Assembly (NCBI GenBank): GCA_026397205.1
Contig: JAPLVH010000022.1
Span: 25,686 to 59,262, forward strand
Source of the DNA: Candidatus Berkelbacteria bacterium
GTDB lineage: Bacteria; Patescibacteriota; UBA1384; XYA2-FULL-43-10; CAINNR01
Direction: 5' to 3'
DNA length: 33,577 nucleotides
Positions 3,410 to 31,149 of the stretch are shown piece after piece. A program made the position numbers and the translations under genes. The notes below the pieces were generated by a model. The model saw only the letters and a list, made by a program, of their open reading frames with translations, ran no database searches and was not told the DNA's origin. Numbering within the stretch: position 1 is the stretch's first letter; each line of letters opens with the position of its first letter.

Positions 3410-3520
3410 GAATTATGAATTAAGAATGCAGAATTAAGAATTACAGAAGGGAATTTATTTGGGGAAATTCACAATTCTTAACCAGGTTCTAAATTCTGAG
3501 ATCTTAATTCTCAATTATTT
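3410..3520 (+). repeat. Intergenic MITE-like repeat, family 1 copy B (diverged centre)
   Basis: GAATTAAGAATGCAGAATTAAGAATTACAGAAGG...TTCTAAATTCTGAGATCTTAATTCTCAATTA. Confidence 0.65.
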
Positions 3521-4018
3521 TTCCAATATCGCCTTCGTTTGCACCGGCGGCATTGCCTTCGTCGGTGTCAAGGTGAAGTCGGAGACAGAAATTCTTATCA
3601 ATTTTAACCACAGTGTCGGCAAAAATTACTTCTCCGCGCGAACTTTTAATCCTAACTTTTTCCAGCCGATCTTCGGATAAATTAAACTCTTTGGCTTCCG
3701 CCCTAGAGGCGTGAATATGACGTTTGGCGATTATCGCTGCGCAGCGACTAATTTCCCCAGAGTTGCCGACAATTTTAATTACGCTGCAACCCGATAACGA
3801 GCTAGATTCATAAGGCGCGGAAATACCAATAGTCCGGCAGTCGGTGGCTGAAAGTTCAACTTGGGTTTCCTCCCGAAAAGGGGAAAGGAATCTGGCCTCA
3901 CGCTCGGCGGTCGGCCCGAGACTTTCTTATATTCTTCACCGGCGAACAAAAAATCATAATCGGTTTTTGACAGATGAATGTGGCGAGCGGAAATTTCAAT
4001 AATAATTTTATTTCCCAT
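3504..4018 (-). pseudogene. pduL: PduL-type phosphate acyltransferase, frameshifted (two frames)
   Basis: Frame 1: MGNKIIIEISARHIHLSKTDYDFLFAGEEYKK; continuing in another frame: SLGPTAEREARFLSPFREETQVELSATDCRTIGISAPYES...IIAKRHIHASRAEAKEF...LRLHLDTDEGNAAG...; both PduL RHIH motifs present but in different frames. Confidence 0.85.
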
Positions 4019-4020
4019 AA

Positions 4021-5130
4021 TTATTTAATTAAAGATTCACCGGTCATCGCCGTCGGTTTTTCTATTTTCAAAATATCAAGAATTGTCGGCGCAATATCAG
4101 CAACCGTTCCTTTTGATTTTATCACAGACGGGACAAAGTTGGAAACTTTTTTTTGAAATTTTTCACCGGCAATTACAAACGGAATAAAGTTTTTCCGCTT
4201 GGAATTTTCAATCATTTGCTCGCCGCCGCCGATTGCCGCAGTAATAATTAGGACTCCGGAATTTTTTAGAACCGCGGTAAATATTTTTGCTAAACTTTGA
4301 TCAATTTTTTTGATTGCCTTGACTACTTGACCAAACGACTCAGTTTCCACTGCCTGTCTCAAGTCGGAAATATTGGCTCTGACAAAGACATATTTTTTTG
4401 AATTAACGGCATCAGTAATTTTCGCCTCAACATTGACCAGTGACGAATTCGAAATTAAAAATTGGTTTAGATTATTTTCAGCAATCACTTCGTTCAAAAT
4501 CGAAGTCGGATTTTCATCGGGAAAAATCGTCAGGATATTTTTTTCTATCGCCGGTGGAAATCGAAATGGCAGAAGCGAGGCAAAAACTGAGATTTTTTTA
4601 AATATCTTGCCGTCGGATAAAATTCTTAGCGCCAGATTTTGAAGACAAACGTTGCCAAAATTTAAAATCAAAACACCATCATTATTTTCAATTTCCAAAT
4701 TCAATTCGCTTGAAATGCTAATTTTTTCATCAGCAATTCCGCTTGATCCTGCCAATTTTTTGATTGCCGATATTGTGTTGTTGGATAATTTATCTTTAGT
4801 GTCGGCAAAAATCAAAAGGCGTGAGTTAAGAGTTGAAATTTTCTTAATAATTTTTTCAAGACACGGATTTTTTTCAAAACTGTTTTCAAAAAGCATAGCG
4901 GCAATTTTCTCTTTTTCCGGCAAAATAATTCGACCGGATTCGAGTGACGCTTGGTTTGATTTCGCAGTCGCGTTTTTTAGCGACTCCAAAATCTGAAAAA
5001 AGAAATTTTGACAGAGTAAATTAAAAACCTCCGGATTTGCACTGTGAATTGCATTGCCGGCAAAATTCTGGCTATAACCCCAGCTGTCAATTGTTAAAAA
5101 TACGATTGGATTTATTTCTAATTTGGTCAT
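4021..5130 (-). CDS. Degenerate GpmI/alkaline-phosphatase-superfamily paralog (probable pseudoenzyme)
   Basis: N-term VFLTIDSWGYSQNFAGNAIHSA and C-term GTVADIAPTILDILKIEKPTAMTGESL align to the adjacent GpmI; GNSETGH, VGHCGN and ADHGN motifs lost. Confidence 0.75.
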   Translation of the reverse strand: MTKLEINPIVFLTIDSWGYSQNFAGNAIHSANPEVFNLLCQNFFFQILESLKNATAKSNQASLESGRIILPEKEKIAAMLFENSFEKNPCLEKIIKKISTLNSRLLIFADTKDKLSNNTISAIKKLAGSSGIADEKISISSELNLEIENNDGVLILNFGNVCLQNLALRILSDGKIFKKISVFASLLPFRFPPAIEKNILTIFPDENPTSILNEVIAENNLNQFLISNSSLVNVEAKITDAVNSKKYVFVRANISDLRQAVETESFGQVVKAIKKIDQSLAKIFTAVLKNSGVLIITAAIGGGEQMIENSKRKNFIPFVIAGEKFQKKVSNFVPSVIKSKGTVADIAPTILDILKIEKPTAMTGESLIK

Positions 5131-5136
5131 ATTGGG

Positions 5137-6762
5137 TTAATTATTATTTTGAATTGAAATTGACGAGTCGTTGCTGACGATTTTCCGCAGATTACTGCCG
5201 ACAATTCCCGACCGACCGGCGATTAGCGATGCGGCTGTCATTTCCTCCGGTTTTTCGATTTTCATAATTTCCAAAATCGTCGGCGCAATATTGCAAAGCG
5301 CGCCGTTAAATTTCAATTGGATCCCTAGAAAGTGAATATCTTTCGAGACGATCACAAACGGAACCGGATTTGCGGTGTGCTCGGTTTGCGGTTTGCCGGT
5401 CGCCGGGTTGATCATCTCCTCGGCATTTCCGTGGTCGGCGGTGATTATTGTCAGATAATTTTTTGCCGAAAGCGCAACAATTAATCGGCCGAGACATTGA
5501 TCAACTGACTCAACTGCCTGGACGGCGGCGGAAAAATTTCCGCAGTGTCCGACCATGTCGGCATTGGCGTAATTTATAACCAGAAAATCAAAATTATAAT
5601 TCAGAGCGGCGATCGTTTTGCTGGTCAATTCCATTGCGCTCATTTCCGGCGTCAAGTCGTAAGTCAAGACCTTCGGCGACGGCTGCAAAATTTGCTTCTC
5701 GCCGGCAAACGGTTTCAAATTTCCGCCGTCAAAAAAATAGGTGACATGGGCGAATTTTTCCGTTTCGGCGCTGTGGTATTGAGTTAAATTATTTTGGCTT
5801 AAAACTTCAGCCAGCGAATTTTTGATTATCACCGGTTCAAAGGCCTGGATGCCGAGCGGATTCGGATCACGGGTGACAAAAGTCAAAAAATATAAATTTT
5901 TCAGAATTTTTCGGTCCGGCATTTGCTTTATTGGACCGCCGACAAACGCCTGCGAGATCTGTTTTGCTCGGTCGGGACGAAAATTGAAAAAGATGACGGC
6001 ATCATTGTCATCAATAGTCACTTTCTCACCACCCTCCGGAATGATAGTTTGCGGCTCGATAAATTCGTCATTAATATTTTTAAGATAACAGCGAGAAATT
6101 GCCTCGCGAACGGTTTTTGAAACTTCCGCTTCGCCCTTGGTCAGCGAGTTGTAAGCCCGCGAAGTTCGGCCCCAATTTTTATCTCGGTCCATGGCAAAAA
6201 AGCGACCGCAGATACTGTTAATCTGGCCGATACCGATTCTTTTCGTCTCCGCCGTTATCTTTTCAAAAATTGACAAAGCCGAGGTTGGATCGGAATCGCG
6301 GCCATCGGTGAATAGATCAAGACAGACCCTAGCTATTCCGTTTTGTTTCGCCATCTGTAAAAGTTTATAGAGGTGATTCAGACATGAGTGGACGATACCG
6401 TTGCCAGCGAGACCAATGATGTGCAAACGCGAATTATTTTTCTTCACATGTTCAAAAGCGGCGAGAATTTTTTCGTTCTTGAAAAACTCGCCATTTTCAA
6501 TTTGACGATTAATATAGGGCAAGTCCTGCGGCACGACTCGACCGGCGCCGATGTTTAGGTGTCCGGTCTCGGAATTTCCACCGGTGCCAGCAGGAAGTCC
6601 GACCGCTTCGCCTGAAGCCAGAAGCTCGGTTTTGGGAAAAGTTCGCCACCAAAAATCAAAGTTCGGTTTTTTAGCGCTAGAGATCGCATTTCCACCCCAA
6701 ACCGGGCCAATTCCCCAGCCATCCAAAATAATAAGCGCAACTTTTTGTCTTGTCTCGTTCAA
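5137..6762 (-). CDS. gpmI: 2,3-bisphosphoglycerate-independent phosphoglycerate mutase
   Basis: VALIILDGWG, GNSETGHLNIGAGRVVPQD, ITADHGNAEEM, EHTANPVPF; TTG start preceded by GGAGGG. Confidence 0.95.
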   Translation of the reverse strand: MNETRQKVALIILDGWGIGPVWGGNAISSAKKPNFDFWWRTFPKTELLASGEAVGLPAGTGGNSETGHLNIGAGRVVPQDLPYINRQIENGEFFKNEKILAAFEHVKKNNSRLHIIGLAGNGIVHSCLNHLYKLLQMAKQNGIARVCLDLFTDGRDSDPTSALSIFEKITAETKRIGIGQINSICGRFFAMDRDKNWGRTSRAYNSLTKGEAEVSKTVREAISRCYLKNINDEFIEPQTIIPEGGEKVTIDDNDAVIFFNFRPDRAKQISQAFVGGPIKQMPDRKILKNLYFLTFVTRDPNPLGIQAFEPVIIKNSLAEVLSQNNLTQYHSAETEKFAHVTYFFDGGNLKPFAGEKQILQPSPKVLTYDLTPEMSAMELTSKTIAALNYNFDFLVINYANADMVGHCGNFSAAVQAVESVDQCLGRLIVALSAKNYLTIITADHGNAEEMINPATGKPQTEHTANPVPFVIVSKDIHFLGIQLKFNGALCNIAPTILEIMKIEKPEEMTAASLIAGRSGIVGSNLRKIVSNDSSISIQNNN

Positions 6763-16517: not shown

Positions 16518-16557
16518 ATATCACTAAATACAAGTGATCACTTAAATACAGTGATAT
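16518..16557. repeat. 40-bp dyad element upstream of, and overlapping the start codon of, the PaaX/Cas2-like gene
   Basis: ATATCACTAAATACAAGTGATCACTTAAATACAGTGATAT; two TCACT-N7-AGTGA units. Confidence 0.9.
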
Positions 16558-17092
16558 GAAAAAACAAAAAATTGCTGAGAGTGCTAAAAATATTACAATA
16601 GAGATTCTCGAAGCTCTTGACACTTTTCTTGGCGCATTTCTTCTTTCAGCTGGGAGTAGTCGTCGTTTGTACCGAGAACTTAACAAGCAACGACCGGACA
16701 TTGACCGTGACACCTTCTATCACAATCTGCACAGCATGAATCGTCGAAAATTAATTAATTACGATCATCATTCAGATTCTGTAGAATTTACAAATAAGGG
16801 TCTATTGAAAGTGGTAGAAAAAGTCTGTAAAAAATTCCCAAATGATAAAATTTTTAGATTTGTTTCTTTTGATATTCCGGAGGATTTCAGCACAAGGCGC
16901 GACAAATTTCGTTCGACGCTAAAACGAATCGGATTTAAGAATGTTCAGAAAAGTTTGTGGGTAATAAACAAGGATGCAAGTTCCGTGGTCGAAATTGCTG
17001 CTTACGAATGTCAAGTTGAGAAATATATTTCATATATCGTTTCTGCTTCCAGTGATATTGACGGTATCCTAATCAAAATGTTTAGGGAATAA
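16556..17092 (+). CDS. Winged-helix + Cas2-like (PaaX C-terminal type) regulator
   Basis: FRFVSFDIPEDFSTRRDKFRSTLKRIGFKNVQKSLWVINKDASSVVEIA resembles the Cas2-like fold of PaaX-family proteins; HTH-like N-terminal region. Confidence 0.75.
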   Translation: MKKQKIAESAKNITIEILEALDTFLGAFLLSAGSSRRLYRELNKQRPDIDRDTFYHNLHSMNRRKLINYDHHSDSVEFTNKGLLKVVEKVCKKFPNDKIFRFVSFDIPEDFSTRRDKFRSTLKRIGFKNVQKSLWVINKDASSVVEIAAYECQVEKYISYIVSASSDIDGILIKMFRE

Positions 17093-17093
17093 C

Positions 17094-17133
17094 ATATCAC
17101 TATATACACGCGATCACTTAAATGCAGTGATAT
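17094..17133. repeat. 40-bp dyad element immediately downstream of the PaaX/Cas2-like gene
   Basis: ATATCACTATATACACGCGATCACTTAAATGCAGTGATAT; 36/40 identical to 16518-16557 by manual alignment. Confidence 0.9.
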
Positions 17134-17162
17134 AAATGTTGGATTTAGACCCACACAAGGGC

Positions 17163-21078: not shown

Positions 21079-22786
21079 AATGATACCGTCATTATTTGAG
21101 GAGAATATAAAACCTTTGGTCTCAAAATTTGCCGCAAACGAGAAAGAAAAAATTGCCGAAGCTTTTCGTTTTGCCAAAAACGCGCACTTGGGGCAAAAAC
21201 GGGTCAGTGGCGAAGATTTTATTATCCACCCAGTATTGGTCGCAAAATCATTCATGGAAGTTGGTGCCGACAGCGAAACCGTAATTGCCGCCCTGCTTCA
21301 TGATGCGATCGAAGACACTTCGGTAACTAAAGATGAGATCAGCAAAAAATTCGGACCAACTGTCGCCGATTTGGTTGATGGTGTAACAAAAATCTCGAGT
21401 ATAAAAGACAAGGAAAAACTTTTACTTTTGGGTTTTGAAGATAAATTTCAAACCCAAATTGACAACTACCGGAAACTTCTGACCAAAATGGCCGGCGACC
21501 CGCGAGTGATCGCAATAAAATTATACGACCGACTTCATAATGTCCAAACTTTGGAGTGGTTGCCGGAAACCAAACGGCAAATTTACGCCAGAGAAACAAT
21601 AGAAATTTACTCCGTCCTGGCCGAACGGCTTGGTTTTGGTGAGTTAAAGGGAAAATTAAACGACCTATGCTTCGAATATGCCTATCCGCAGGAGTATGAT
21701 GTTTTCATACAAAGTATTACGATTCCTCGGCAGGAGCGTGAAAGATATATTACCAAAATTATTATGGAAATCAAAAAGCATTTGTTCGAGAACAAAATCA
21801 AATTTCAAATTTACGGACGGGTGAAAAGAAATTATTCGCTTTACAGCAAATTGAAAACAAAAAATGGCTATCTCGGTTCGATTTATGATTTGGTAGCAAT
21901 TCGAATTATCGCCAGTGATGTTGCTGATTGCTACAAAATTCTTGGTTTAATCCACAAAAAATATCCGCCACTGATTCAAAAATTTCACGATTATATCGCC
22001 AGGCCGAAAGAAAACGGTTACCAATCACTTCACACCGTCGTTTTCGGACCAGAGAAAAAGTCGTTTGAAATCCAAATTCGAACCGAGGAAATGGACAAAA
22101 ATGCCGAATTCGGTGTCGCTTCGCATTGGAATTATAAGGAAAAAACAACTTCAAATTTGTCAGAAAAAATCGGTGCCGACTGGCAGGAAGAGTTATCGGA
22201 CGATGACAAAAATCAAAAATTATTTGCCAATAAAATTTTTGCTTTTACGCCGGTGGGGAAGATTTTTGAACTCCGTCGCGGTGCAACGGTGATTGATTTT
22301 GCTTTTTTAATTCACAGCGATTTGGGATTGTCGTGCGCCGGCGCAAAAATCAATGGTAAAATTGCGCCGATTTCTACCGAACTTTTAACCGGTGATGTTG
22401 TCGAGATATTAAAAAGTCCGCGACCGAATCCGTCGCGCGATTGGCTCCGGATTGCCAAAACCGGTTATGCCAAAACCAAAATTCGAAAATTTTTCGCCGC
22501 TCAAAATCGGCTTGATGATTTGGAAAAGGTTGATGTGTTAAAACCGGTGCAAATTAAAAAACGCCGTCTGACGATCAACCAACAAAATTTCAAAATCACT
22601 TTCGAAAACGGCAACTTTCCCTACCGGCTGGCCAAATGTTGCAATCCTAAAAGTTCCGATGATGTCGTCGGCTACATCACCAGCCAAAAAGAAATTTCAG
22701 TCCACAAATCTACTTGTTCTGCCTGCAAAAAATTTTTACCTGCTCGAATAGTTCAAGCAAATTGGAGCAAAACAAAAATTAGTTGA
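21020..22786 (+). CDS. rel: RelA/SpoT family (p)ppGpp synthetase/hydrolase
   Basis: AALLHDAIEDTSV (HD), AIKLYDRLHNVQTL, YDLVAIRII, KENGYQSLHTVVFGP, TGS and ACT-like C-term; real start may be MIPSLFEENI at ~21080. Confidence 0.93.
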   Translation: MKNDSNHFSSRAKSRDLSDKMIPSLFEENIKPLVSKFAANEKEKIAEAFRFAKNAHLGQKRVSGEDFIIHPVLVAKSFMEVGADSETVIAALLHDAIEDTSVTKDEISKKFGPTVADLVDGVTKISSIKDKEKLLLLGFEDKFQTQIDNYRKLLTKMAGDPRVIAIKLYDRLHNVQTLEWLPETKRQIYARETIEIYSVLAERLGFGELKGKLNDLCFEYAYPQEYDVFIQSITIPRQERERYITKIIMEIKKHLFENKIKFQIYGRVKRNYSLYSKLKTKNGYLGSIYDLVAIRIIASDVADCYKILGLIHKKYPPLIQKFHDYIARPKENGYQSLHTVVFGPEKKSFEIQIRTEEMDKNAEFGVASHWNYKEKTTSNLSEKIGADWQEELSDDDKNQKLFANKIFAFTPVGKIFELRRGATVIDFAFLIHSDLGLSCAGAKINGKIAPISTELLTGDVVEILKSPRPNPSRDWLRIAKTGYAKTKIRKFFAAQNRLDDLEKVDVLKPVQIKKRRLTINQQNFKITFENGNFPYRLAKCCNPKSSDDVVGYITSQKEISVHKSTCSACKKFLPARIVQANWSKTKIS

Positions 22787-22811
22787 CAAATATTACGACT
22801 TTTGATAAGAT
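22783..22811 (+). promoter_or_regulatory. Sigma70-type promoter driving the candidate His leader
   Basis: TTGACA (overlaps the rel stop codon) -N17- TAAGAT. Confidence 0.8.
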
Positions 22812-22821
22812 GATTTTGCAA

Positions 22822-22893
22822 ATGAAAAAATTTCAGATAACAATTAATCACCATCACAATTCTTTTCTTTTCGGGAAAGGATTGTTTTGCTGA
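22822..22893 (+). CDS. Putative His-rich leader peptide (23 aa)
   Basis: MKKFQITINHHHNSFLFGKGLFC*; CAC CAT CAC at 22849-22857; between promoter and terminator. Confidence 0.6.
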   Translation: MKKFQITINHHHNSFLFGKGLFC

Positions 22894-22916
22894 ACGATTA
22901 TTAATCAAGTTCTCAA

Positions 22917-22955
22917 ATCAGCCCCGTCCCGAAAAGGACGGGGCTGATTTTTTTC
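22917..22955 (+). terminator. Intrinsic terminator (candidate attenuator)
   Basis: ATCAGCCCCGTCC-CGAAAA-GGACGGGGCTGAT followed by a T run. Confidence 0.92.
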
Positions 22956-22971
22956 GGCCTACATTACATTG

Positions 22972-23178
22972 ATGGCGGTGACAATCATGGCCCGGATCGC
23001 GATGAAAGTAAAAGCAACTGGATCGAATGTCGCGACCAAAGACGGATGGATCTGCTACCAGTGGCAGTGTCCTTTGTGCAGGAAAGACCACGGCGAATCA
23101 TGCTATCCCGAAGATCTCGACCGGCAAGAACGATGTTGTGACAGATGCGGTCAACCCGTCAGTATTGTCGGTGTCTGA
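22972..23178 (+). CDS. Small zinc-ribbon-like protein, uncharacterised
   Basis: WQCPLCRKDHGESCYPEDLDRQERCCDRCGQPV; two Cys pairs; track ORF begins 22969. Confidence 0.45.
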   Translation: MAVTIMARIAMKVKATGSNVATKDGWICYQWQCPLCRKDHGESCYPEDLDRQERCCDRCGQPVSIVGV

Positions 23179-23257
23179 CCGCAAACCAATGGGGCGGAGA
23201 AATCCGCCCCAACCGCAATTTGACCAAAATCTACCGATTTGCTACCTTATATATAGT

Positions 23258-23323
23258 ATGTCAAAAGAAAAAAGATTATTCCAAAAACCACGTGGAACAC
23301 GAGATATCTTGCCGGAGGAATAA
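23258..23323 (+). pseudogene. hisS: hisS 5' fragment (duplicate of the hisS N-terminus)
   Basis: MSKEKRLFQKPRGTRDILPEE* versus MSNEKRLFQKPRGTRDILPAQ in full hisS at 24320. Confidence 0.9.
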
Positions 23324-23376
23324 GCAATTGCACTACGATAAAAAATCGTATATTTTTTGAGTATCAAGATAGCAAG

Positions 23377-23997
23377 ATGAAAATTACAAGAAAAATAAAT
23401 ATGTCTCCACATATTATTTCAATCGATGATTTTAAGGAAAAGATTGGGGGTTATTCTCCAGAACGAGCGTCTGAATTTCATGCGGAATCAGCAAAATTGG
23501 CGGACATAGAGTTTGGTGGGGCGGTAAAAAATACAGCAAATGGCAAAGTTATTTTTCTAGCCGGAGGAAGTGCCTCAGGAAAAACAGAATATTTACACAC
23601 TCATTTGGTTGATGAAGACGCGGTTATCTTTGATAGCACGTTGTCCAGTCAAGAAGGTGCTAGAATTAAAATTGGAAAAGCAAAAAAATACAACAAGAAT
23701 ATTGAGTTACATTTTGTAATCCCCGATGATGTCAAAAGAGCATTTACTGCTTTTTTGGGCAGAGATAGAAAATTCAACGATGCAGTATTCTATAATACTC
23801 ATAGCGATTCAAGATCTACTTTGCTCTGGGTTGCTAATAACTACAGTGAAATCACAATCAAGGTAATTGAAAGCTACTACAGAAAAGACAAATTAAAATA
23901 TAAGGAAATTGAATTAAAAAACAAGGAAGAAACACTTGAATATATTAAGTCAATTCAGTATAATACAAAAGAGATAATAAAGAAAGTGATATCATGA
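23377..23997 (+). CDS. Zeta-toxin-like P-loop kinase
   Basis: KVIFLAGGSASGKTEYL Walker A, AVIFDSTLSS; 4-nt ATGA overlap with next gene. Confidence 0.65.
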   Translation: MKITRKINMSPHIISIDDFKEKIGGYSPERASEFHAESAKLADIEFGGAVKNTANGKVIFLAGGSASGKTEYLHTHLVDEDAVIFDSTLSSQEGARIKIGKAKKYNKNIELHFVIPDDVKRAFTAFLGRDRKFNDAVFYNTHSDSRSTLLWVANNYSEITIKVIESYYRKDKLKYKEIELKNKEETLEYIKSIQYNTKEIIKKVIS

Positions 23998-24272
23998 CAA
24001 AAAAAGACCTTCATCCAAAAAATCCTAACAACCAATACCTTAAGGCTTATTCTGATGCAGTAAAACAAGGTCAAAAAATTCAGCAAGTAATTCCACACAG
24101 CAATGGTTGGGCAGTCAAAAAAGTATCTTCAGATAAAGCGTCTGGGGTTTTTAAAAATAAAGATCTCGCAATTTCAAGGGCTTGTAAAATTGCTAAAAAC
24201 CAAAGATCTGATGTTTTGATTCATAATAAATCCGGCAAAATATCAAAAAGAATTCCCTGTCGAGTTAGATAA
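23994..24272 (+). CDS. DUF2188-like small protein
   Basis: IQQVIPHSNGWAVKKVSSDKASGVFKNKDLAISRACKIAKNQRSDVLIHNKSGKI. Confidence 0.7.
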   Translation: MTKKDLHPKNPNNQYLKAYSDAVKQGQKIQQVIPHSNGWAVKKVSSDKASGVFKNKDLAISRACKIAKNQRSDVLIHNKSGKISKRIPCRVR

Positions 24273-24319
24273 TTTCTGAATTTTTATTTCTGAGTTAAAT
24301 TCAATAGATCTATTATAGT

Positions 24320-25621
24320 ATGTCAAACGAAAAAAGATTATTCCAAAAACCACGAGGGACACGAGATATTTTGCCGGCGCAGCAGTCAGCTTGGCGGTTT
24401 TTCGAGTTGTCGGCGGAAAATGTTTTATTCGGACTCGGATTTTCCAAAATTGATACACCGATTTTTGAAGATCGGCAAATTTTCGAACGCTCTGCCGGTG
24501 CCGGCACAGACATTGTCGAAAAAGAATTATTTTCGATCGAGTCGCGGCGTGACGACGAAGAAAATTCTTATGTCTTGCGCCCTGAGGGAACCGCCGGAGT
24601 TGTTAGAGCTTATATTGAAAATGGAATGATGTCATGGCCACAGCCGGTTCGATTATTTTATTTCGGTCCGATGTTTCGTTATGAGCGGCCACAAGCCGGT
24701 AGGTTTCGCGAACATCGTCAACTCGGTTTAGAAATTATCGGTGATGCATCAGCTGAGTCGGACTTTTTGTCAATTTTTGCCGCAATAGAGATTCTAAAAA
24801 AGTTGTCATTTAACAATATCACACTGGCTATTAATTCCATCGGTTGCCCAAAGTGCCGACCAAAATTCATCGACGGGCTGAAAAAATATTACTCCGCAAA
24901 ACTAGAAAACCTTTGTGAGGATTGCCGCCGCCGATACGAATCAAACCCGCTTCGACTTTTGGACTGCAAAAATAGTCAGTGTCAGAGTGCTAAAAACGAA
25001 ACACCAAAATTCGTCAATTTTCTTGATGACGAATGCAAGGAACATTTCGCCGATTTGAAAATTATGCTTGATGATTTTGGAATCAAATACACCATTGACA
25101 ATTCTTTGGTCCGCGGATTCGATTATTACACCAAAACGGTTTTTGAAATTTCTGCTGGCACTGATGCCAAAAGAGTAAATACTTTTGTCGGTGGCGGGCG
25201 GTACGATGGACTGGTTGAAACTTTAGGCGGCGCAAAAACTCCGGCTGTCGGTTTTGGCATGGGCGCCGATCGCGTCGTCGCCGAAATAATTTCATCTGGA
25301 GTTAAAATTCCCAAGCCACTTGGTGTCGAAATTTATTTGATTTGTTTTGATAATTCGGCAAAAGAAATGGCAATGAAAGTTTACCGGCAAATTGATGATG
25401 CCGAAATTAATATCTTCTATTTGCCTTCTGATGATTCATTATCCAACCAGCTAAAATCTGCCGCCAAAATCGGCGCCGAATTTGCAATAATTATTGGCGA
25501 AAATGAAGTTAAGGGAAATCAAATTGTTTTGCGGGATCTAGAAAAAAGTACACAAGAAATTATAAAATTTGATGATATAATACCGTTGATAAGTAAAAGA
25601 TTGCTTCGTTCCTCGCAATGA
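24320..25621 (+). CDS. hisS: Histidyl-tRNA synthetase
   Basis: FQKPRGTRDILP, RYERPQAGRFREHRQLGLEIIG, LVRGFDYYTKTVFEI, GGGRYDGLVE. Confidence 0.95.
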   Translation: MSNEKRLFQKPRGTRDILPAQQSAWRFFELSAENVLFGLGFSKIDTPIFEDRQIFERSAGAGTDIVEKELFSIESRRDDEENSYVLRPEGTAGVVRAYIENGMMSWPQPVRLFYFGPMFRYERPQAGRFREHRQLGLEIIGDASAESDFLSIFAAIEILKKLSFNNITLAINSIGCPKCRPKFIDGLKKYYSAKLENLCEDCRRRYESNPLRLLDCKNSQCQSAKNETPKFVNFLDDECKEHFADLKIMLDDFGIKYTIDNSLVRGFDYYTKTVFEISAGTDAKRVNTFVGGGRYDGLVETLGGAKTPAVGFGMGADRVVAEIISSGVKIPKPLGVEIYLICFDNSAKEMAMKVYRQIDDAEINIFYLPSDDSLSNQLKSAAKIGAEFAIIIGENEVKGNQIVLRDLEKSTQEIIKFDDIIPLISKRLLRSSQ

Positions 25622-25622
25622 C
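25599..25622. repeat. Half-copy of the GTCATTGCGAGG palindromic repeat at the hisS 3' end
   Basis: GATTGCTTCGTTCCTCGCAATGAC; supplies the hisS stop codon. Confidence 0.75.
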
Positions 25623-25637
25623 AAAACGCCTGAAAAA

Positions 25638-26945
25638 ATGAAATTAAAAATTGAAAAACTTGTCTCTGATGGTTTTGGTCTCGCGCATGCACCCGATGGT
25701 CGGGTGATTTTTATAAAAAAAACCTCTCCCGGTGATGTTGTAAATGCTGAAATTTACAAAAAACAAAAGGATTTTGCTTTTGCCAAAGTTGAAAAAATTA
25801 TTTCGCCGTCTTGTGATCGAATCCTGCCAAAATGTCAGTATTTTGAACCCTGCGGTGGTTGCGATTATCAAATGCTGTCCTCGCAAAATCAACTAAAATA
25901 CAAAAACGAAATTGTTGCCGAAATTTTACACCGGGCAAAAGTTGATGCTAAACCAGAAAAGATCATCGCCGGATCAAATCAAGAACTTGGGTACCGAAAT
26001 TCCATTCGATTTATTTTTGAAATCGATGACAAAAATCATATTCATTTAGGTCGTCATAATTATTTGGATGAAAGAAAATTTGTCATCGTTGATAAATGTC
26101 TTCTGGCTTCGGAAAAAGTTAATGAAATCGCCCAAGCGATTCGTGACACGATAAACGAAAGTGATGGTGAAAAATCGTCGTTCTGGCAACTGAAAATTCG
26201 CCAAGGTTTTGCCACCAATGAAATTATGGTTGAAATAATTACTTCAACCGAAAATCTGCCTGTCAAAAAAGAATTGATTGATGAATTAAAAAAATTCCCG
26301 GAAATAAAATCAATTTATCAAACAATTGCCAGCGGAAAATCGCTCAAACATTTGCAACGACGACTTTTGTTTGGCTCATCGCTGATTCACGAAAAAATCG
26401 GCGGTTTTATTTTTCAAATTTCACCCGAGTCGTTTTTCCAAACAAATTCTCTCGGTGTCAAAACTTTATACGACAAAATCAAAGAGTTTGCCGACATAAA
26501 ATTTGGCGACGAAGTAGTTGATTTATTTTGTGGCACCGGTTCGATTGGAATTTATTTGTCAACTTTGGCAAAAAAAGTTGTCGGCGTCGAAATTGTGCCG
26601 GAAGCAATTCGCGACGCCCGCGACAATGCCCGACTTAATAAAATTTCAAATTGCGAATTTATCATTAGAGATTCGACAAAATGGATTAAGCAAAATATAA
26701 ATAAAAAAATCGACAAAATAATTGTTGATCCACCGCGCGCCGGCCTTTCCAAAGATTTAATTTTTGACCTTTGCCTTTTGAATTTTGACTTAATTGTCTA
26801 TGTTTCCTGCAACCCTGCAACTTTCGCCCGCGATCTAAAAATTTTCGAAAGTAGGGGAGTTGTTGCCACGAATATCCAACCAATTGATATGTTCCCACAG
26901 ACACATCATATCGAGATAGTAAGTAAGCTGACGAAAATAAAATAA
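25638..26945 (+). CDS. TrmA/RumA-family (RlmD-like) 23S rRNA/tRNA uracil-5-methyltransferase
   Basis: TRAM-like N-term, CGGCDYQMLS, DLFCGTGSIGIYLS, IIVDPPRAGLSKD, YVSCNPATFARDL, MFPQTHHIEIV. Confidence 0.93.
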   Translation: MKLKIEKLVSDGFGLAHAPDGRVIFIKKTSPGDVVNAEIYKKQKDFAFAKVEKIISPSCDRILPKCQYFEPCGGCDYQMLSSQNQLKYKNEIVAEILHRAKVDAKPEKIIAGSNQELGYRNSIRFIFEIDDKNHIHLGRHNYLDERKFVIVDKCLLASEKVNEIAQAIRDTINESDGEKSSFWQLKIRQGFATNEIMVEIITSTENLPVKKELIDELKKFPEIKSIYQTIASGKSLKHLQRRLLFGSSLIHEKIGGFIFQISPESFFQTNSLGVKTLYDKIKEFADIKFGDEVVDLFCGTGSIGIYLSTLAKKVVGVEIVPEAIRDARDNARLNKISNCEFIIRDSTKWIKQNINKKIDKIIVDPPRAGLSKDLIFDLCLLNFDLIVYVSCNPATFARDLKIFESRGVVATNIQPIDMFPQTHHIEIVSKLTKIK

Positions 26946-26987
26946 TCCACGAATATTAATACGCATATCCCGCGAAGCTTCAGCGAA

Positions 26988-27050
26988 GTTGGACAAACCC
27001 ATCATATTGAAATCGTTGGACTTTTAAAAAAACCGGCACTTGAAGTAAAT
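26988..27050 (+). pseudogene. 3' remnant of a second RumA-type methyltransferase gene
   Basis: Translates as VGQTHHIEIVGLLKKP, matching the C-terminal PQTHHIEIV of the adjacent full gene. Confidence 0.7.
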
Positions 27051-27056
27051 GCCGGA
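27024..27056 (-). terminator. Intrinsic terminator for the minus-strand ORF 27066-27545
   Basis: Minus: CCGGCA-N11-TGCCGG-TTTTTTT. Confidence 0.75.
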
Positions 27057-27065
27057 AAATGAATT

Positions 27066-27545
27066 CTATTGTGGCGAAAAGTCCGGTATTCGTCGACGAA
27101 CTTCACCAACTAGTCGGTCGCGCCACGTATCGAGACCACCGACCTCTTCGATATGCTTTCGGTGGCGAGCAGTCACAACCGATAGTTGATTGTCTGGAAT
27201 ATTCATCACAAATTCTGCGTACAAAATCGATTGCTTGGTTATCTCACGAAGAACTCTATCACGTTCTTCGACCGAATCCTCTTCACCAGAGTAACAAAGA
27301 TCAAATATTGGGTGAAGTCCAATATACGCGGTGAACAGAAGCGGATCATCTTCATCATCTTCTGAATCATCGCAAACGCATTTAGGACAATCGGTGAATG
27401 CAACTTTGACAACAATCTCTTTCGTATAACCAACAAATGGACCAATCAAAATCAGTGGCGTCGATGGGTCATTGTTCATTCGAATAACATCATCTTCTGG
27501 GTCAAATTCGCAATCCTGCGCAGCTATGACATCCATCATGTCCAT
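27066..27545 (-). CDS. Acidic hypothetical protein
   Basis: SD GAGGAGG upstream; minus promoter TTGACA-N17-TAAAAT; DCPKCVCDDSEDDEDDP; no recognised family. Confidence 0.65.
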   Translation of the reverse strand: MDMMDVIAAQDCEFDPEDDVIRMNNDPSTPLILIGPFVGYTKEIVVKVAFTDCPKCVCDDSEDDEDDPLLFTAYIGLHPIFDLCYSGEEDSVEERDRVLREITKQSILYAEFVMNIPDNQLSVVTARHRKHIEEVGGLDTWRDRLVGEVRRRIPDFSPQ

Positions 27546-27646: not shown

Positions 27647-28255
27647 TCAACGAAACTTCCGAATTACGCCACGGACTTTGCCTTGGATTGTCACTCGTTT
27701 TTTGGCAAAGTGCATCGGTTTCATTGTGCTGTTTGCCGGTTGAAGTCGAATGCCGTTTGGCTCTAAATAATAACGCTTAAGAGTTGCGTTGTCGTTATCA
27801 ATTAAAGCAACGACGATGTCGCCGTTTCGCGGTGAATTTGATTGCTCGATGATGACATAATCGCCGTCCAAAATTCCATCATCAATCATTGATTCGCCGC
27901 GAACACGAAGAGCAAAAGTCCGCCGACCCATCATATCTTTCGGGATGTCAATGGTCTCGTTGGTTCGAATTGCCTCGATCGGTTTGCCGGCATCAATAAC
28001 ACCGGACAAAGGAATTTCAAAAGTATCAATGCCGGATGCAAAAACCGGCGTCAACTGAATTGACCGCGCCTCCATCGCTTCTTTTGTTAAATATCCCTTT
28101 TCCTCCAAAATTGAAATATATTCGGCGATTGTCGAGACCGACGATAATTCAAAATAATAGGCGATTTCCCGAAAACTCGGGGCATAACCGTTTTCTGTGA
28201 TAAATCCGCGAATAAAATCCAGGATTTCTTTCTGCCTTTTTGTTAGTGGCTCCAT
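27647..28255 (-). CDS. lexA: LexA repressor (start adjusted)
   Basis: MEPLTKRQKEILDFIRGFITENGYAPSFREIA (HTH), RVRGESMIDDGILDGDYVIIE (Ser), VALIDNDNATLKRYY (Lys). Confidence 0.93.
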   Translation of the reverse strand: MEPLTKRQKEILDFIRGFITENGYAPSFREIAYYFELSSVSTIAEYISILEEKGYLTKEAMEARSIQLTPVFASGIDTFEIPLSGVIDAGKPIEAIRTNETIDIPKDMMGRRTFALRVRGESMIDDGILDGDYVIIEQSNSPRNGDIVVALIDNDNATLKRYYLEPNGIRLQPANSTMKPMHFAKKRVTIQGKVRGVIRKFR

Positions 28256-28327
28256 AATTGCTCCTTCTAGTCGCAATAGCGTAAAACGCAAAGCGAAAAA
28301 CTAAAAACTATAACTAAAAATATAAAA

Positions 28328-28699
28328 CTATCTTTTGCCCCGCAACGTTAAAATACTAGCGCCAAGAATTTTTGCAATTTCAACAGCTTCGGTTTGAATT
28401 TTATAAAAATCAACACTGTGAATCTGGCGAGTATCGGATAAAAGATTCAGCCAAAATAGTGTTTCATTTGCAGATTTTAATGCGTGGCCAAAAAAATTAG
28501 TAAAATCTTTCTTACTGCTACCAGCTTGTGCCTCAATAATATTTGCACCGATACTTGTTGAACACCTTATTAGTTGTTTTGCAATAATTTGATTCGTAAG
28601 ATTCCTTGTGTCGAGGTTATCTATAAATTTAATAATCAAAACTGCAAAATCATATGATCGTTTTTTAGCATTTCTTTGATTTTCATTTTTTGATTCCAT
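28328..28699 (-). CDS. Four-helix bundle protein (S23/IVP-like)
   Basis: YDFAVLIIKFID...QLIRCSTSIGANIIEAQAGSSKKDFTNFFGHALKSANETLFWL. Confidence 0.85.
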   Translation of the reverse strand: MESKNENQRNAKKRSYDFAVLIIKFIDNLDTRNLTNQIIAKQLIRCSTSIGANIIEAQAGSSKKDFTNFFGHALKSANETLFWLNLLSDTRQIHSVDFYKIQTEAVEIAKILGASILTLRGKR

Positions 28700-28747
28700 T
28701 TTTAAATTTTAAGTTATAGTTTTACGCTTTTCGTTTTAAGTTTTAAG

Positions 28748-28816
28748 CTATTCAATAAACCCGCCATTGAATGGTTCTGCTTTTGTTCCCGGTTTGTTTG
28801 ATTTTTGTTTGGTCAT
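28748..28816 (-). CDS. Possible microprotein upstream of the four-helix-bundle/lexA genes
   Basis: MTKQKSNKPGTKAEPFNGGFIE*; preceded by TTGACA-N19-TAAAAT on minus strand. Confidence 0.3.
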   Translation of the reverse strand: MTKQKSNKPGTKAEPFNGGFIE

Positions 28817-28910
28817 AAATTTATTTTACCAAACATCGCCCGAACACTGTCAAGAGTTTTTTAAGTATATACTCAAATAATCCTTTGCTGCAAAAGATAA
28901 TCTATTTGTG

Positions 28911-30288: not shown

Positions 30289-31032
30289 TTGGGAATTGCC
30301 GACGACATCAGGCCAAAAAAATTTCAGCGGGTTTCTGATCGCCGAGAGAAAAAATCCAAAGCGGAGAAAGACCCGAAGGAAGAGGCGGTTCACGAGCTAT
30401 TTTCAAAAAAAGATAGTGGCGATTTTTTTGCTGATACGCCAATTGGAGAAAAAACACCGGCGAAAGCCAAAGTTGAAACTAAGACAAAAGATATTGGGCA
30501 GGAGAAAAAAGGTTTTGGTTGGTTTTACACAACGATAATTATTCTCGTGATTTTGATCTTGGCAACGATTCTGATTTGGCAAAATTTCGACACACTGAAA
30601 AGCTACTGGAACGGGAGTCATAAAAATAAAAAAGATGCTAATTTGAATCAGATTCTAAATTCCAATGGAAATTCCAGCCAAAATTACAGCGGCTCAACGA
30701 CTACCACACCGACAACGACACAACCGACCACGACCACATCACCGACAGTTGACAAATCATTTCCGATATCGGTTCTGAATGGCTCAGGAATCAAAAATTC
30801 GGCGGCGAGTGTATCGTCGGAGCTGACAACTGCTGGTTTCACCACGGTCACAAACTCCGGCAACGCCAGATCATTTAGCTACAGCTCGACGGTTGTATAT
30901 TTCAAAACCGGCAAAGATGTCGAAGCCGATTTGGTCAAAACCGCACTGCCAGACCAAACGGTGACGGCTACCGAAAGCAACTCCGTCGTTGGCGCTAACT
31001 ATGATATTGTTGTTGTGGTGGGAAAAAAGTAG
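30289..31032 (+). CDS. LytR_cpsA_psr C-terminal-domain membrane protein
   Basis: TTG start after AAAGGAGGG; TM IIILVILILATILI; Thr/Pro linker; FPISVLNGSGIKNSAASVSSELTTAGF. Confidence 0.75.
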   Translation: MGIADDIRPKKFQRVSDRREKKSKAEKDPKEEAVHELFSKKDSGDFFADTPIGEKTPAKAKVETKTKDIGQEKKGFGWFYTTIIILVILILATILIWQNFDTLKSYWNGSHKNKKDANLNQILNSNGNSSQNYSGSTTTTPTTTQPTTTTSPTVDKSFPISVLNGSGIKNSAASVSSELTTAGFTTVTNSGNARSFSYSSTVVYFKTGKDVEADLVKTALPDQTVTATESNSVVGANYDIVVVVGKK

Positions 31033-31035
31033 ATA

Positions 31036-31147
31036 GAATTAAGAATCCAGAATGCTGAATTAAGATTTACGGAAGTTTGCCAATTGATAAACAATTCTTA
31101 ATTCTAGATTAGATTCTTAATTCTGAGATCTTAATTCTTAATTATTC
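31036..31147 (+). repeat. Intergenic MITE-like repeat, family 1 copy C
   Basis: GAATTAAGAATCCAGAATG...GGAAGTTT...GATAAACAATTCTTAATTCTAGATTAGATTCTTAATTCTGAGATCTTAATTCTTAATTA; related copies at 100-212 (inverted) and 3410-3520. Confidence 0.75.
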
Positions 31148-31149
31148 TT

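Follow-up and report, generated by a model that had tools for sequence, protein, structure and literature searches.

A zeta-like kinase-DUF2188 gene pair between direct repeats of the hisS start in a Candidatus Berkelbacteria genome

A gene pair encoding a zeta-like P-loop kinase and a DUF2188 protein lies between two copies of the hisS start in a 33,577-nt stretch of Candidatus Berkelbacteria DNA (the window, here always the whole stretch). The genome is that of a member of the Patescibacteria (CPR) and is small, with 0.82 Mb in 29 contigs. It is rather likely that this cassette of ~1 kb inserted in hisS with a target duplication of ~65 bp and without a transposase of its own, and that a rumA remnant further downstream ('rumA) is a separate matter. 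The observed basis of this reading is the repeat itself, an empty site in G002 (a genome from another genus of the same family), the conservation of the pair, and similar repeats around it in two unrelated genomes. Against it, the two hisS copies share 94% identity and not 100%, and three of their four differences are silent, which also fits recombination between related alleles.

The upstream copy, hisS', forms the first arm of a 64-nt direct repeat whose two arms are offset by 1062 nt and agree at 60 of 64 positions. A hisS 5' fragment of 21 codons about 1.06 kb before the intact gene had been read from the sequence alone, and it is real. The repeat is the top-scoring direct (same-strand) repeat of the window (BLAST E about 1e-21), and the two flanks of the pair reach a local alignment score of 109, whereas none of 300 shuffles exceeds 32. 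Both arms start with TATAGT, six bases 5' of each ATG, and span hisS codons 1-19. The TTATAGT-like upstream region that had been ascribed to hisS' belongs to the repeat, since TATAGT is found in both arms, while the remainder upstream of hisS' is not repeated. The fragment opens with the ATG at 23258 (not 23259) and runs for 21 codons to a TAA (23321); beyond the repeat it reads PEE-TAA-GCA, one base off PEEQA. When the host genome was searched with the region, the only match was the locus itself; hisS' appeared only as the known fragment, there was no second copy of the region, and a dispersed repeat was rejected as the origin of the hisS repeat on this ground. The features of the locus are collected in Table 1.

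Table 1. Features of the hisS-rumA locus, in window coordinates
Feature	Position	Strand	Basis or remark
Promoter-like site, TTGACA-17-TAAGAT	22783-22811	+	5' of leader ORF
Leader ORF, 23 codons, MKKFQITINHHHNSFLFGKGLFC	22822..22893	+	Leader homologue in G002 at the corresponding position, MKIQTKKLNNIHHYNSLPFGKGSF
Terminator/attenuator hairpin, then T run	22915..22956	+	Leader plus hairpin z -5.9; kept in G002 (z -6.3)
Small zinc-ribbon-like ORF (CxxC pairs)	22972..23178	+	First ORF past the attenuator; also in G002
Putative ancestral hisS promoter, TTGACC-17-TACCTT	23220..23248	+	Read by eye; TTGACC also 5' of hisS in G002
Upstream repeat arm, TATAGT plus hisS codons 1-19 (hisS')	23252..23315	+	Repeat comparison
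Zeta-like P-loop kinase, 198 aa, candidate toxin	23401..23997 (alternative start 23377)	+	Pfam, PDB profile, fold
DUF2188 protein, 92 aa, candidate antitoxin (PADLOC PDC-S16)	23994..24272	+	Pfam, PADLOC
Downstream repeat arm, 5' end of intact hisS	24314..24377	+	Repeat comparison
Intact hisS, 433 aa	24320..25621	+	Pfam; tree, groups with own family
Intact rumA-type methyltransferase, 435 aa	25638..26945	+	Pfam; tree, groups with own family
'rumA, remnant QTHHIEIVGLLKK from the C-terminus of a diverged second rumA	26994..27032	+	Profile match, silent divergence
Intrinsic terminator of convergent gene	27026..27062	-	z -6.3; overlaps the last 'rumA codons
lexA	27647..28291	-	Pfam; inverted relative to hisS-rumA compared with relatives

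Genomes of the same family have the gene order clpC-relA-hisS-rumA, with lexA behind rumA where traceable (G001, G003); G003 is without relA at the hisS site, and none of G001-G003 has a kinase homologue. The G002 site consists of relA, a leader ORF with His codons and a terminator, a zinc-ribbon-like ORF, a GC hairpin, TTGACC, a single hisS start and rumA, without the pair. In the window these elements precede hisS', which is thereby placed at the ancestral hisS start. The sequence-only reading had taken the outer hisS fragment as the mark of the ancestral operon, and the attenuator and hisS promoter of G002 stand where this predicts; the synteny it expected of sister genomes, hisS-rumA without the insert, was also found, in G002 with the zinc-ribbon ORF between attenuator and hisS.

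The leader ORF, with HHH (HHY in G002), and the terminator precede the zinc-ribbon ORF and not hisS directly (22822-23178). This region has no Rfam match at the gathering threshold, the zinc-ribbon-like ORF has no match in Pfam or NCBIfam, and the ancestral hisS promoter was not flagged by a consensus scan. The proposal that a His attenuator is in its original place upstream of hisS agrees with G002 as to position, with the reservation that the zinc-ribbon ORF comes first. Because of this ORF, and because hisS has a promoter-like site of its own, attenuator control of hisS is no better than plausible.

Between the repeat arms there are only the kinase and DUF2188 ORFs, with no transposase or integrase. 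The DUF2188 ATG overlaps the kinase stop (ATGA), and the pair has a GC content of 33%, compared with 41% for the window. Pfam bears out the gene content read from the sequence (kinase, DUF2188, hisS and rumA), with the Zeta_toxin match of the kinase just below cutoff (22.1 vs 22.3 bits). The kinase also matches the PDB profile Zeta_1 of gonococcal zeta1 (1.2e-7), and its predicted fold (pLDDT 93) has 6EPG as best PDB match (TM 0.75), the six top matches all being zeta1. The P-loop GGxASGKTE is conserved in all kinase members, and the model is that of a zeta fold with a Walker A motif. The DUF2188 partner matches the PADLOC candidate-defence models PDC-S16 (1e-17), and the kinase has no PADLOC match. 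A promoter-like site before DUF2188 (23936-23964) is not above chance. Among seven papers that mention DUF2188, none was found by title or abstract to deal with its function. The two genes may form a candidate toxin-antitoxin or defence pair, in which the kinase would be the toxin and the DUF2188 protein the antitoxin that neutralises its toxicity.

The pair occurs in 15 loci from distinct genomes of diverse CPR lineages, with the kinase first; one locus (L093) has no DUF2188 match, and in L055, L058 and L094 the kinase is broken or truncated. Its neighbours differ and include typA, a restriction-type gene, vapBC and uvrD-like genes (names other than typA were read by eye from the sequence). 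Searches by class for further loci gave few new ones. The pair is absent from the searched viral contigs, plasmids and phages, and its carriage by a phage or plasmid was rejected for lack of any match there.

Two other pair loci have clear flanking duplications. In G384 the pair lies between 62-nt direct repeats that are 95% identical, and the downstream copy is the typA terminator, convergent with the pair. The full 62-nt repeat occurs only twice in that genome, and in several congeners that lack the pair a terminator of diverged sequence occupies the same typA position. The left arm is 184 bases from the contig end, and parts of the repeat resemble other terminators of the G384 genome. In the Daviesbacteria locus L052 the pair lies between 69-nt repeats that are 75% identical, right after the stop of the upstream gene; there is no further copy in 12.6 kb, and other dispersed repeats are nearby. 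When flanks were aligned against 300 shuffles, G384 and L052 scored above all of them and L055 was borderline (3/300). Direct repeats of at least 55 nt and at least 70% identity with a spacing of 800-1300 number five in 476 kb of non-redundant loci, and three of these bracket this pair. Since the window raised the question, two of the three count as independent support. The other pair loci show no clear flanking repeat, leaving it clear in 3 of 15 only, and they may be old or inserted otherwise. Because the pair has similar flanking duplications at other genes and in other genomes, its insertion alone explains hisS'.

According to this insertion reading, the cassette would have entered hisS about 20 codons in, within a resident cluster of relA, attenuator, zinc ribbon, hisS and rumA. 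A target of ~64-70 bp, beginning shortly 5' of the ATG and reaching codon ~19-23, would have been duplicated on insertion, with drift afterwards. The upstream copy would have kept the old promoter and become the dead fragment hisS', and the downstream copy would have restored a complete hisS, so that the essential gene survived. hisS and rumA follow immediately after the cassette, no clear terminator intervenes, and from this position hisS is probably transcribed through the cassette. The pair would move as a unit without its own transposase and leave a long direct duplication. A more far-reaching version, in which the pair is itself a minimal mobile element of CPR bacteria that does without a transposase, is doubtful; here the characteristic target duplication of 62-69 bp would come from the pair's own activity or from a host process that it sets off, and even an essential gene such as hisS would survive its entry.

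Homology-facilitated illegitimate recombination is another possible origin of the arrangement, though an unlikely one. Precedents for one-sided homologous/illegitimate recombination come from naturally competent bacteria and from E. coli conjugation (PMC3240628). DNA of a close relative with the pair already upstream of hisS would have recombined homologously inside hisS (perhaps into rumA) and been joined illegitimately at resident hisS codon ~22, and hisS' would be the resident allele. The hisS copies do differ like alleles, in that most of the changes are silent. Relatives have PAEQA or PTEQP after the repeat, and hisS', read as PEE-(T/C)AA-GCA, resembles this PxEQA pattern more than the PAQQS of the intact gene does; however, the resemblance at codons 20-23 was noticed post hoc, and a slightly longer target duplication fits it too. 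Such recombination also requires a donor with the pair already beside hisS, and alone it does not account for the repeats of 62-69 nt that flank the pair beside other genes.

The sequence-only reading had proposed a single replacement, in which an incoming kinase-DUF2188-hisS-rumA block displaced the resident middle and hisS' and 'rumA are the outer scars of one event. The order hisS' - pair - hisS - rumA - 'rumA is as it described, and the ancestral operon was confirmed. A comparison of phylogenies between full hisS/rumA and the fragments had been suggested as a check; in trees of the intact genes both proved native, falling within the host's own family (supports 97/93 and 97/96). An incoming hisS-rumA block is for this reason neither needed nor indicated; a hisS and rumA donor within the genus is possible.

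The 'rumA fragment starts 48 nt past the stop of intact rumA. It is a genuine rumA C-terminus, as had been read, and scores 26.6 bits with a RumA C-terminal profile built from relatives, compared with 9.1 for the best of 18,000 shuffled frames. The match begins at Q, and the preceding V-G is not RumA-like (F-P in relatives). Its tail, VGLL, is that of other families of the order and stands apart from that of its own family (VSEL/VAEL), which also speaks against a common replacement event. Silent differences affect 7 of 10 shared-residue codons in 'rumA, compared with 3 of 17 in hisS' (p=0.013). This strong difference makes one event with two outer scars unlikely, and block replacement as a whole is very improbable. 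By its far more diverged silent sites, 'rumA is probably an older, separate relic. A recent local duplication was rejected as its source, given that the 7 of 10 codons differ silently with residues kept, and there is no second rumA elsewhere in the genome. An intergenic repeat before 'rumA (GCGAAGCTTCAGCGAAG) has three near copies in the genome and is uninformative. The 3' side of rumA has its own history, which may be an earlier replacement of rumA or the inversion of lexA; a rumA-only replacement is possible. lexA is codirectional with rumA in relatives and inverted in the window (lexA region 27647-28860).

The hisS 5' end could instead have been duplicated locally in tandem, independently of the pair, which would have landed between the copies later. 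This is compatible with the window taken alone but needs two events and leaves the repeats around the same pair elsewhere unexplained, and it is the remotest of these possibilities.

Several other features of the window were noted. Upstream of lexA there is a short conserved leader ORF (MTKQKSNKPGTKAEPFNGGFIE), with similar ORFs in front of lexA in G003 and G001. A 159-aa ORF between rumA and lexA (27066-27545, minus strand) has no Pfam or NCBIfam match. A 23S rRNA intervening-sequence-protein gene (28328-28699, minus strand) is enclosed by 53-nt inverted repeats of 83% identity (28275-28752) and lies between lexA and the leader region upstream of it. A PaaX/Cas2-like gene (16556-17092) lies between 43-nt hairpin-forming direct repeats of 88% identity (16518-17136), and G008 has a homologue between hisS and rumA, also within a 43-nt hairpin repeat (91%). 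Because such repeats bracket both genes, this single gene looks mobile. A dispersed repeat family of ~115 nt (75-87%) occurs in both orientations at 103-217, 3410-3522 and 31027-31149, and a 55-nt direct repeat (82%) lies inside two neighbouring minus-strand genes (4043-4097 and 5237-5291).

Insertion with long target duplication is known for restriction-modification genes of Helicobacter (Nobusato 2000 and Furuta 2010, as cited in PMC1643837, PMC3031569 and PMC3874152). Such insertions are recognised by flanking direct repeats of tens to ~100 bp, and the repeats around the pair measure 64 nt in the window, 62 nt in G384 and 69 nt in L052. As with these insertions, often linked to rearrangements, a small selfish-type gene pair without a transposase stands in a putative direct target duplication of the order of 100 bp. 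Unlike them, the genes are a kinase/DUF2188 pair, the hosts are CPR bacteria, and the repeats are of 62-69 bp in three genomes. The kinase resembles the toxins of epsilon/zeta and PezAT in its fold, nearest to gonococcal zeta1 (6EPG/6EPH), and in its P-loop. The pair differs from these systems in that the kinase gene comes first and the partner is a DUF2188 protein, with no epsilon- or PezA-like antitoxin, and the kinase has about 200 aa, compared with about 400 for zeta1. PDC-S16, which the partner but not the kinase matches, is a candidate family without demonstrated function. Integrative islands with att repeats in gene ends are similar in that a direct repeat of tens of bp restores the target gene; here, by contrast, the insert of ~1 kb has no integrase and the target sequence differs in each genome.

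Small toxin-antitoxin-like pairs scatter among genomes without visible transposases, and a duplication of 62-69 bp that recurs around one pair in three CPR genomes is a concrete scar to search for. The insertion would extend the long-target-duplication mode from restriction-modification genes to another type of gene pair and to CPR bacteria, and the weight of the finding rises if the scar holds in larger samples. It would also mean that an essential tRNA-synthetase gene can be separated from its promoter and come to lie downstream of such a pair.
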